A DNA stretch of 64,000 nt from Runella rosea (lineage in GTDB: Bacteria; Bacteroidota; Bacteroidia; Cytophagales; Spirosomataceae), in contig NZ_CP030850.1 of assembly GCF_003325355.1 (NCBI RefSeq), positions 4,581,501-4,645,500 of the forward strand. Direction: 5' to 3'. The notes under the pieces were generated by a model. It saw only the letters and a list, made by a program, of their open reading frames with translations, searched no databases and was not told where the DNA came from. A program made the position numbers and the translations under genes. Of this stretch, positions 462-6,153 are shown piece by piece. Position 1 is the stretch's first letter. The number at the start of each line of letters is the position of its first letter.

Positions 462-1907
462 TTACAATTCATTGGCCATTTCAATGGCATTGCGGAGAGC
501 CGCTAGCTTGTTATGCACTTCCTGCATCTCAGAAGCAATGTTTGATTTGGCCACCACGCCCATTCCTGCCTGATAAAACAACGTATTGTTTTTACTCAAA
601 AAAGTCCGAATCGTAATGCAGTGGTTGAAGTCTCCGCTGAAACTGATGTGGCCCAATGCGCCGCCATAAATACTTCGATTGGTGGTTTCAAGACGATCAA
701 TGATGGTCATCGCGTTGTGTTTGGGGGCCCCGGAGAGCGTTCCAGCGGGAAATGTATCGGCAACCAATTGGAGTGGATTGACTCCCGCACTCATTTTTCC
801 CGTTACTTTAGAAACCAAGTGAATCACGTGGGAGAAAAATTGTGCTTCTTTGTAGGTTTCTACTTTGACCACATCGCAGCTCCGACTCAAATCATTGCGG
901 GCTAGGTCTACCAACATTACGTGTTCAGCCGTTTCTTTGGGGTCGGCGGCCAGCTGGCGCGCCAGTTCAGCATCTTTTTCGTCATCGCCCGTGCGTCGGA
1001 AAGTGCCCGCAATGGGGTGAATTTCGGCATGTCCGTTTTTGATGTAGATTTGTTTTTCGGGGGACGAACCGAATACTTTGTAATTGCCAAAATCAAAGTA
1101 AAAAAGGTACGGAGAAGGATTGATGGATCGCAAAGCCCGGTAGACGTTGAATTCATCGCCTTCAAATTTCTTGCTGAAACGGCGCGAAGGGACAATCTGA
1201 AATACATCGCCGCGCAGACAGTGATTGATGCATTGCTGGATCGTACCCGCCATTTGCTCATCGGTTACGTTGCTTTCTTCGGTGGCATTGGCTTTAAAGC
1301 GGAACGTCGCCATTTTGGGCGCTTTAACAATCATCTCCAAAGAATCCAAATCCATGCCCATACTTCGGCTGTGGTTGGAATCCTGCCTTGTTACGCCATA
1401 ATCATGTTCAAAAAGATACACTTCGTCCTTGAAATGATTGAACGCAATTACAAAACGATAGATACGATACACCATCTGAGGAATGGCGTTGTCGGGTGTT
1501 TTGGGCTGAATCTCAATGTCTTCAAAGTATTTCACCGAGTCGTAGGTAATGTGTCCAAACAAACCGCCATTGATAAAAGGGTAATCATTTTTTGGGGCGT
1601 CAAAGCGTTGAATAAAATCCCTTAGGGTTTGCATGGCGTGTTTGCGATGAGGCAAACCAAACGACTCTTCGGAGCCGTCAGGAAAGGTTTGCGTTACCAC
1701 ATCTTCGTCCAACACAAACGAGGCGACGGGGTCGCAGGCAATGACGCTAAATCCGTGCTCCATGCCGTGGTATTCGGCACTTTCGAGCATGACGGTATAG
1801 GGGAATTTATCGCGGAGTTTGAGATAAACGCCAACGGGTGTGAGCATATCTCCTAATAATTTACGGCTTTGAGTGGTGATTTTGAAGGTGGTATCGGTCG
1901 TTGTCAT
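462..1907 (-). CDS. trpE: Anthranilate synthase component I (TrpE)
   Basis: 481 residues, typical for TrpE. It converts chorismate to anthranilate, the first committed step of tryptophan synthesis, using ammonia supplied by the TrpG glutaminase. The N-terminal half has the LES-type motif (VMLESAEYHG) used for tryptophan feedback binding in this family. The C-terminal chorismate-binding domain carries PIAGTFRRTGD, DLARNDLSRS, GTLSGAPKHNAM and YGGALGHISF. These features favour TrpE over PabB or isochorismate synthase. The ATG at 1907 is the only good start. No trpG or other trp gene is seen in the window. Just upstream are a promoter, a Trp-rich leader peptide and a terminator hairpin, so expression is most likely controlled by attenuation. 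Confidence 0.95.
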   Translation of the reverse strand: MTTTDTTFKITTQSRKLLGDMLTPVGVYLKLRDKFPYTVMLESAEYHGMEHGFSVIACDPVASFVLDEDVVTQTFPDGSEESFGLPHRKHAMQTLRDFIQRFDAPKNDYPFINGGLFGHITYDSVKYFEDIEIQPKTPDNAIPQMVYRIYRFVIAFNHFKDEVYLFEHDYGVTRQDSNHSRSMGMDLDSLEMIVKAPKMATFRFKANATEESNVTDEQMAGTIQQCINHCLRGDVFQIVPSRRFSKKFEGDEFNVYRALRSINPSPYLFYFDFGNYKVFGSSPEKQIYIKNGHAEIHPIAGTFRRTGDDEKDAELARQLAADPKETAEHVMLVDLARNDLSRSCDVVKVETYKEAQFFSHVIHLVSKVTGKMSAGVNPLQLVADTFPAGTLSGAPKHNAMTIIDRLETTNRSIYGGALGHISFSGDFNHCITIRTFLSKNNTLFYQAGMGVVAKSNIASEMQEVHNKLAALRNAIEMANEL

Positions 1908-1953
1908 TACCTATATCGGTTGAATGTGTTAGTTATCAAGTTTGGGAATTGAA

Positions 1954-1993
1954 AATAAAAAAAGCTCGCTGTGCGATGAACAGCGAGCTTTTT
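1954..1993 (-). terminator. trpE attenuator terminator hairpin
   Basis: A perfect 14-bp stem (1959-1972 with 1980-1993) has a 7-nt loop and, in the minus-strand direction, is followed by seven T residues and then ATTTTC. This is a strong intrinsic terminator placed between the leader peptide stop (2015) and the trpE start (1907). Part of it (1975-1982) is exactly complementary to 2020-2027 in the leader transcript, giving a competing antiterminator pairing. Confidence 0.9.
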
Positions 1994-2014
1994 GGGTTAA
2001 AAATAAGCATAGCA

Positions 2015-2080
2015 TTACGTGTTCATCTTTTTCGAAGAAGAACGCCACCACCATGCGCTATTTTTGACGTTTAAAATCAT
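2015..2080 (-). CDS. trpL: trp operon leader peptide (21 residues, three Trp codons in a row)
   Basis: ATG at 2080, stop TAA at 2015-2017. The peptide reads MILNVKNSA, then WWW (TGG TGG TGG at 2045-2053), then RSSSKKMNT. Tandem Trp codons before a terminator and trpE are the mark of ribosome-mediated attenuation. The bases after the Trp codons (2035-2043) can pair with 2019-2027 as a pause hairpin. The segment 2020-2027 can instead pair with 1975-1982 inside the terminator. A ribosome stalled at the Trp codons would cover the first strand and so favour antitermination. Confidence 0.88.
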   Translation of the reverse strand: MILNVKNSAWWWRSSSKKMNT

Positions 2081-2084
2081 GTTG

Positions 2085-2115
2085 CAAAATTACAATCGGG
2101 ATTTATAAATCCAAA
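2085..2115 (-). promoter_or_regulatory. trp leader promoter (TTTG-N19-TAATTTTG)
   Basis: On the minus strand TTTG (2115-2112) is separated by 19 bp from TAATTTTG (2092-2085). This matches the Bacteroidota sigma-A consensus TTTG-N19..21-TAnnTTTG. Only four bases separate the -7 box from the leader ATG at 2080, so the transcript may begin at or very near that ATG. Confidence 0.75.
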
Positions 2116-5790: not shown

Positions 5791-6085
5791 AGCTGCGCAT
5801 CCTCCGTGCGCGGCGACTAAATAGTTCATTGGGCAGGTCTCCTGACTTGTTTCATCGCTCTTGCACCTTCCCGGCGTGGAGTTTACAGTTGGCAGTTTAC
5901 AGTTGGCAGTAAAAATACTGTAGACTGTGAACCATGGACTGTGAACTGAAAACCAGTGGTTTATGCAGTTGTTAAGAGCGACCTTGGATGAAACTTACAG
6001 TTGCGGGGACAGTTTTCGTTTTGCACGAAATTCCCTTTTAAGCCGTCAAAGCCCGCCACGAAGCAGGCATGAGGCACCCAAGACG
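5791..6085 (-). promoter_or_regulatory. Cobalamin (B12) riboswitch
   Basis: Read on the minus strand the region holds the conserved cobalamin aptamer parts in order: GGTGCC (6078-6073), a GCCTGC/GCGGGC stem (6068-6051), AAAAGGGAA (6039-6031), ACTGTCCCCGCAACTGTAA (about 6013-5995) and the B12 box CAAGTCAGGAGACCTGCCC (5849-5831). A GCGCA/TGCGC hairpin (about 5809-5794) with GGAGGA in its loop follows and may be P13 or part of the expression platform. The start of the DUF6580 gene is 30 bp further. In this class, ligand binding normally lowers expression of uptake or synthesis genes. A repeat-type hairpin is inserted in a peripheral arm. Confidence 0.93.
5881..5950. repeat. Imperfect palindrome with internal direct repeats, inside the riboswitch arm
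   Basis: The 14-mer GTTTACAGTTGGCA occurs twice in tandem (5881-5894, 5895-5908). It is followed by a perfect CAGTA-AAAA-TACTG hairpin (5907-5920) and then by a right arm built from two ACTGTGAAC copies that pair with the left arm through G-U wobbles. The element lies between the conserved core and the B12 box, in a non-conserved arm. Confidence 0.75.
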
Positions 6086-6153
6086 AATACAAAAGTAGGG
6101 AGAAGTCGGGAGTGAGGAGTAAGAAAGGAGTGTTTATTTTTTTGGGGAGGAGC

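Follow-up and report, generated by a model that had tools for sequence, protein, structure and literature searches.

The trpE gene of Runella rosea is in all likelihood controlled by a ribosome-mediated transcription attenuator that responds to tryptophan. The element lies on the minus strand of the window, i.e., the whole stretch of 64,000 nt that was analyzed (contig NZ_CP030850.1, positions 4,581,501 to 4,645,500). A reading of the sequence alone had proposed such an attenuator, and our analysis supports it, all the parts being in the right order and kept in relatives. Sequence and comparison together establish a predicted promoter, a leader frame containing Trp codons, and three helices that exclude one another (Table 1). 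The element is not of a new kind. What we add is its extension to the whole family, an analysis of the constraints acting on it, and, in Runella, a leader peptide that is probably leaderless.

Anatomy of the trpE leader

Table 1. Coordinates, in the window, of trpE and of the parts of its leader.
Feature	Positions	Strand	Basis or remarks
-33 box TTTG	2112..2115	-	consensus TTTG / TAnnTTTG as given in the consulted part of PMC7366714
-7 box TAATTTTG	2085..2092	-	19 nt from -33 box; ends 4 nt before leader ATG
Leader peptide frame MILNVKNSAWWWRSSSKKMNT and stop	2015..2080	-	21 codons; ATG 2080, stop 2017-2015
Three Trp codons TGGTGGTGG	2045..2053	-	read from sequence
Outer stem of hairpin 1:2, 5' arm	2049..2065	-	minimum free energy (MFE) fold; partner 1999-2014
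Outer stem of hairpin 1:2, 3' arm	1999..2014	-	MFE fold
Apical part of hairpin 1:2 (2043-2035 with 2029-2021)	2021..2043	-	MFE fold; duplex -7.1 kcal/mol
Region 2 GATGAACA, antiterminator 5' arm	2020..2027	-	pairs with region 3
Region 3 TGTTCATC, antiterminator 3' arm	1975..1982	-	overlaps top of terminator 5' arm and loop
Terminator 5' arm AAAAAGCTCGCTGT	1980..1993	-	terminator scan; covariation
Terminator 3' arm ACAGCGAGCTTTTT (region 4)	1959..1972	-	terminator scan; covariation
T-tract	1952..1963	-	read from sequence
trpE, anthranilate synthase component I	462..1907	-	Pfam Anth_synt_I_N and Chorismate_bind above cut-off

The 21-codon leader frame with three consecutive TGG codons described in the sequence-only reading is present at 2080-2015, and TGGTGGTGG occurs 3 times in the window for 0.35 expected. 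The promoter that it placed at 2085-2115 is of the Bacteroidota type, with TTTG and TAATTTTG found on the minus strand; the TTTG-N19-TAATTTTG pattern alone is not rare (4 occurrences in the window vs. 2.75 expected from shuffles). The 14-bp terminator with its T-tract was likewise returned by the terminator scan, at 1993-1959, with 14 pairs (6 of them G-C), a 7-nt loop, and a T-rich tail, in a scan whose terminator-like sites are as a whole no commoner than in shuffles (5 vs. 4.9). In an alignment of 41 sequences, 9 of its 14 pairs have changed on both sides (68 cells), and none of 500 shuffles scores as high. An intrinsic terminator kept by compensatory change is thus found between the leader and the structural gene, a feature expected of ribosome-mediated transcription attenuators. 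When RNAalifold was run on the 41 leaders, it recovered only the terminator. It missed the leader helices because the leader part aligned poorly, and the analysis was therefore anchored on the Trp run instead.

The terminator and trpE are 51 nt apart. The best NCBIfam match of the gene is trpE_most, with 422.7 bits, under the cut-off of 517.7, and its nearest named relatives are from Runella (90-99% identity). Downstream of trpE, on the same strand, there is a gene with a T9SS sorting domain. The genes trpG, D, C, F, and B are about 1.42 Mb from trpE, with hldE- and hemC-like genes between them and trpB directly behind trpF. In this genome, trpE would be the only gene under such control. We saw no such leader before trpG and, under the rule used, no aromatic leader before the DAHP synthase gene (L218). 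A W-W frame that lies 400 nt upstream of trpG is out of frame with another gene that it overlaps, and was judged a chance occurrence. Finally, when the genome was searched for further Trp leaders preceded by this promoter pattern, three matches came up besides the known element, about the number given by the reversed control (5 matches vs. 4).

Competing folds and the proposed switch

The 126-nt leader has a minimum free energy of -41.8 kcal/mol, vs. -24.4 (sd 3.4) for 200 dinucleotide shuffles (z -5.1), none of which is as stable. A possible pause hairpin pairing 2035-2043 with 2019-2027 had been noticed earlier. The hairpin exists, but in the MFE fold the partner of 2043-2035 is 2029-2021 and not 2027-2019, two bases off, and this apical hairpin is the tip of a longer one, hairpin 1:2, whose outer stem was absent from that reading. 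The 8-base antiterminator pairing that it described is exact, GATGAACA (2027-2020) being the reverse complement of TGTTCATC (1982-1975).

Stepwise folding without a ribosome yields hairpin 1:2 (-21.8 kcal/mol) plus the terminator. When the 5' part is masked to mimic a ribosome stalled at any one of the TGG codons, and the RNA extends to 1975, the 2:3 helix forms (-9.9 kcal/mol), and with a ribosome modeled at the stop codon the terminator alone can form. Once the full terminator is present, thermodynamics always favors it (-23.6), so the switch hinges on the antiterminator forming first. Attenuators usually rely on this order of folding.

These folds suggest how the switch may work. RNA polymerase would start at the leader ATG or slightly upstream of it. 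As long as no ribosome occupies the leader, hairpin 1:2 would hold region 2 and the terminator would form. When Trp-tRNA is scarce, the ribosome would stall on the TGG run and open hairpin 1:2. Region 2, located about 17 nt farther on, would then be free to pair with region 3, such that the terminator would be barred and the polymerase would proceed into trpE. When Trp-tRNA is plentiful, the ribosome would instead reach the stop codon (2017-2015) and cover region 2, and the 14-bp terminator would end transcription near 1952-1963.

Competing terminator and antiterminator folds are by themselves no proof of a ribosome, and attenuation could in principle be driven without one, by a protein or by a ligand-sensing RNA (T-box, TRAP-like, riboswitch). 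We regard this as hardly credible here, since over this part of the window no match to an Rfam family attains the gathering score, and since Trp codons placed so strictly within a conserved open frame require no further sensor.

Conservation and constraint in relatives

We gathered 112 loci, 80 from a genome scan and the rest from 150 genomes of the family and from the genome of R. rosea itself. They provided 91 distinct leaders, the remainder being 15 duplicates and 6 loci without a leader under the rule used (L063, which has no upstream sequence, L097, L103, L106, L110, and L112). A covariance model, R1, was built from 41 of the leaders; in the genomes G062, G085, G027, and G102, which are those of loci L103, L106, L110, and L112, it matches 421-456 bp upstream. 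R1 matches 150 out of 150 sampled genomes of the family at E 0.01, partly by construction since it derives from leaders of the same family. It stands directly upstream of trpE, on the same strand, in at least 142 of the 147 family genomes with a usable trpE (148 have a trpE match, and G025, with only 3' fragments of the gene, was left out). Among the matches listed, the gap between R1 and trpE is 10-456 bp (median 41), and none adjoins trpE in G009, G038, G067, G072, and G137.

These counts bear on another reading of the hairpin, namely that it terminates the upstream outer-membrane beta-barrel gene (2160-2753), with trpE being transcribed from elsewhere. The upstream gene is an ordinary one on the same strand that ends at 2160, and the terminator is strong. 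However, the promoter and the Trp-codon leader intervene, and the whole unit precedes trpE across the family in the proportion just given, sometimes with rRNA or tRNA genes upstream (5S in L012, tRNA in L064), which makes a terminator of the upstream gene highly unlikely. In these leaders, from Dyadobacter and Larkinella, the trpE leader is close behind the 5S rRNA (L012:5-116) or the tRNA gene (L064:122-195). Many such contigs begin some 400-800 bp ahead of trpE, the pattern expected if assemblies break at rRNA operons.

Beyond the family, R1 matches 73 of 118 genomes of the order, many of them weakly, the matches being counted irrespective of the gene downstream. In the class, a WW leader is found at 27 of 29 trpE loci and is missing at the other 2; at this level the pairing of region 2, by the helix rule, is found mainly in the group detected by Rfam.

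A comparison of relatives for the leader frame, the tandem TGG codons, and the competing pairing had been suggested together with the original proposal. The first two are kept: all 91 distinct leaders have tandem Trp, WWW in 72 and WW in 19. Tandem codons for the product of the pathway in a short leader frame, a feature of the class, are found both in MILNVKNSAWWWRSSSKKMNT before trpE and in 91 relatives. The competing pairing is also present, the 2:3 helix being above the score limit (15 or more) in 81 of the 91 leaders and under it in 10. The outer stem has at least 4 pairs in 91/91 folded leaders and region 2 is shut in 88/91, counts that come without a shuffle control of their own, the mean fold z being -2.3 in this set (under -2 in 56/91).

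Region 2 starts on average 16.6 nt (sd 1.6) past the last Trp codon in 81 of the 91 leaders, whereas its distance from the stop codon has an sd of 6.9; region 2 was sought only in the interval that begins 9 nt beyond the last Trp codon and ends 12 nt beyond the stop, so both spreads are bounded. The distance of about 16.6 nt is roughly the reach of a stalled ribosome. The motif of region 2 (GATGAAC and variants) is in frame 0 in Runella and in frame 1 in Persicitalea; in the R. zeae group it is in frame 2 and includes the stop codon. Its presence in all three reading frames, with a drifting stop, argues for selection on the RNA and not on the peptide. What selection keeps is the distance from the Trp codons to region 2.

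The same observations weigh on a mechanism of the TnaC kind, in which free tryptophan arrests the ribosome on the nascent leader. Such a mechanism is suggested by the presence of a Trp-bearing leader peptide ahead of a tryptophan gene. Yet, the residues after the Trp run vary by clade, and the position of the stop with respect to region 2 drifts by over 20 nt, so that neither the sequence nor the length of the peptide is fixed; what is kept is the Trp codons and the RNA complementarity. We thus consider an arrest peptide to be extremely improbable and retain the attenuator that senses Trp-tRNA.

Compensatory changes in the 2:3 pairing had been put forward as a further check. Inside Runella, the pairing holds in 100% of cells in eight leaders of the Runella group, with one compensatory change from A-U to G-C: in the R. 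zeae group, region 2, region 3, and region 4 have all changed in concert, from A-U/U-A to G-C/C-G. In the alignment of 41 sequences, three pairs of 2:3 have changed on both sides, a number attained by 6 of 500 shuffles, but 340 of 500 shuffles have a covariation score as high as that of the helix, and only 83.7% of cells are paired, partly through misalignment. In this wide alignment, controls with slid and shuffled sequences back the 3:4 helix strongly and the 2:3 helix weakly. The case for 2:3 lies in sequence conservation, position, and a few compensatory changes. The fraction of mononucleotide shuffles is 0.05 or less in 70 of the 91 leaders. When region 3 was swapped among 17 clade representatives, the mean score was 14.4 vs. 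18.1 for own pairs, and in only 3 of the 17 does no foreign partner equal the own one. An antiterminator incompatible with the terminator, and close enough for a stalled ribosome to act on, is likewise a feature of the class and is found here, with covariation alone being weak.

Known systems, the leader 5' end, and other leaders

At gathering thresholds, the only Rfam match in the whole window is a cobalamin riboswitch, and nothing is returned over the trpE leader. The riboswitch is at 5815-6094 on the minus strand (89.9 bits). Scanned permissively, the leader had 29 sub-threshold matches, mostly to unrelated small RNAs that fit the strong terminator on either strand, and these were discarded. 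The closest known element is the Bacteroid-trp RNA (Rfam RF01692), listed in the consulted part of Weinberg et al. 2010 (PMC2864571). Against this family, the window reaches 29.5 bits (E 0.16), below the gathering score of 49, and the R. rosea genome has no RF01692 match. The cut-off is reached by 4 of 4 flavobacterial loci and by none of the 16 non-flavobacterial loci tested, as well as in 11 of 148 genomes of the phylum and in one control genome, Bacteroides ihuae. All 13 matches in the phylum at E 0.001 or better are in one family, just upstream of trpE.

The likeness is nevertheless one of gene and layout, the ATG, Trp codons, outer hairpin, and terminator 5' arm following one another as in Bacteroid-trp, and the competing 2:3 helix is also found in the flavobacterial members (as TCGTGAA/TTCACGA). 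The RF01692 model stops in the terminator 5' arm and, unlike our analysis of the window element, includes neither the terminator nor the 2:3 helix. In the window, as in Bacteroid-trp, a Bacteroidota genome has a Trp-codon leader before a trp gene and a hairpin that encloses the Trp codons. Given the same anatomy and position, we regard the element as a divergent relative of Bacteroid-trp and do not file it as a member of RF01692. This extends the Bacteroid-trp type from the flavobacterial group to the family of R. rosea, and gives a motif that was catalogued but undescribed the full form of a four-part attenuator whose switch can be tested.

The Trp_leader of Proteobacteria (RF00513) scores 28.2 bits over the leader, below its cut-off of 41. 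It shares the tandem-Trp leader peptide, the three competing helices, and the U-tract terminator, whereas the window has a Bacteroidota promoter, a probable leaderless start, and a single gene as target instead of a trp operon. Within the phylum, leader-peptide attenuation has been proposed before amino-acid operons of Flavobacterium psychrophilum (PMC9723704). This is the same mechanism in another family and genus, and the consulted part of that study names neither trpE nor a structure. For B. thetaiotaomicron, short frames resembling leader peptides are mentioned in the part of PMC7366714 that we consulted. Our search of the literature on leader-peptide attenuation in Bacteroidota, whose coverage mostly excluded subscription journals, returned no paper on the trpE switch of this family.

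The -7 box ends 4 nt before the leader ATG, and from this gap the transcription start is predicted to lie, probably, 0-3 nt from the ATG. The 4-nt gap is found in 14 of the 91 leaders, i.e., all 11 distinct ones of Runella, the near relatives L010 and L011, and L102. In the other leaders the gap is 8-68 nt where a box was found (3 have none), the values for 7 Larkinella leaders and for L060 coming from a relaxed motif that, in Larkinella, falls in or near a tRNA gene. We lean, if slightly, toward the view that the trpE leader peptide of Runella is translated leaderlessly, with the 70S ribosome loading at the tip of an RNA that starts 0-3 nt before the AUG, and that the attenuator would thereby sense both the tryptophan supply and the capacity for leaderless initiation. 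To our knowledge, most genes of Bacteroidota have no Shine-Dalgarno-led start.

Leaderless or very short 5' ends are uncommon in the phylum, accounting for 5.5% of the mRNAs of F. psychrophilum and, when under 10 nt, for about 3.7% of mRNA 5' ends in B. thetaiotaomicron, according to the consulted parts of PMC9723704 and PMC7366714, respectively. The mycobacterial cysteine attenuators (Canestrari 2020, as described in the part of the review PMC9031893 that we consulted) also have a short leaderless frame with repeated codons that sense one amino acid, but they belong to another phylum, respond to another amino acid, and act on the translation of downstream genes. If confirmed, the Runella element would be the first named leaderless leader-peptide attenuator in Bacteroidota, as far as the literature searched shows. 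A leader peptide starting at or near the RNA tip raises the question of how ribosome and polymerase are kept in step in these bacteria.

Several other leaders were found alongside. Two other Runella species carry, before trpB, an additional Trp leader in which CWW is followed later by one more W (L196:6019-6158 region and L197:3887-4025), with a -7-like box likewise 4 nt before the ATG; the leaderless arrangement would then have been employed twice in the genus. Five genomes of one other genus of the family have a second WWW leader with a terminator before trpB (L198, L199, L200, L201, and L202; the identity of trpB was confirmed by profile for L198). In a genome of the order, a leader rich in Phe, Tyr, and Trp (MNNTYFSFYYFWYDKIV) and a terminator precede, on the minus strand, a DAHP synthase gene whose best profile match is below the cut-off (L204); this is possibly an attenuator for the three aromatic amino acids. 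Leader-like frames with scattered Trp codons occur, also on the minus strand, before trpG (L205) and trpB (L207) in two genomes of the order. In two genomes of one genus (L208 and L209), a short frame rich in Ile, Leu, and Val and a terminator precede ilvD, the R1 match being out of frame. Other extra matches of R1 are merely terminator-like hairpins (L203 and L210) or doubtful (L211). Finally, the R. rosea genome itself has a probable histidine leader before hisG (L238, G000:C1, about 1577189-1577450, minus strand), with a GTG-started frame, (M)KTRNYAFFRHHHHHACGRA, about 190 nt upstream of the gene, whose start codon was chosen by eye.
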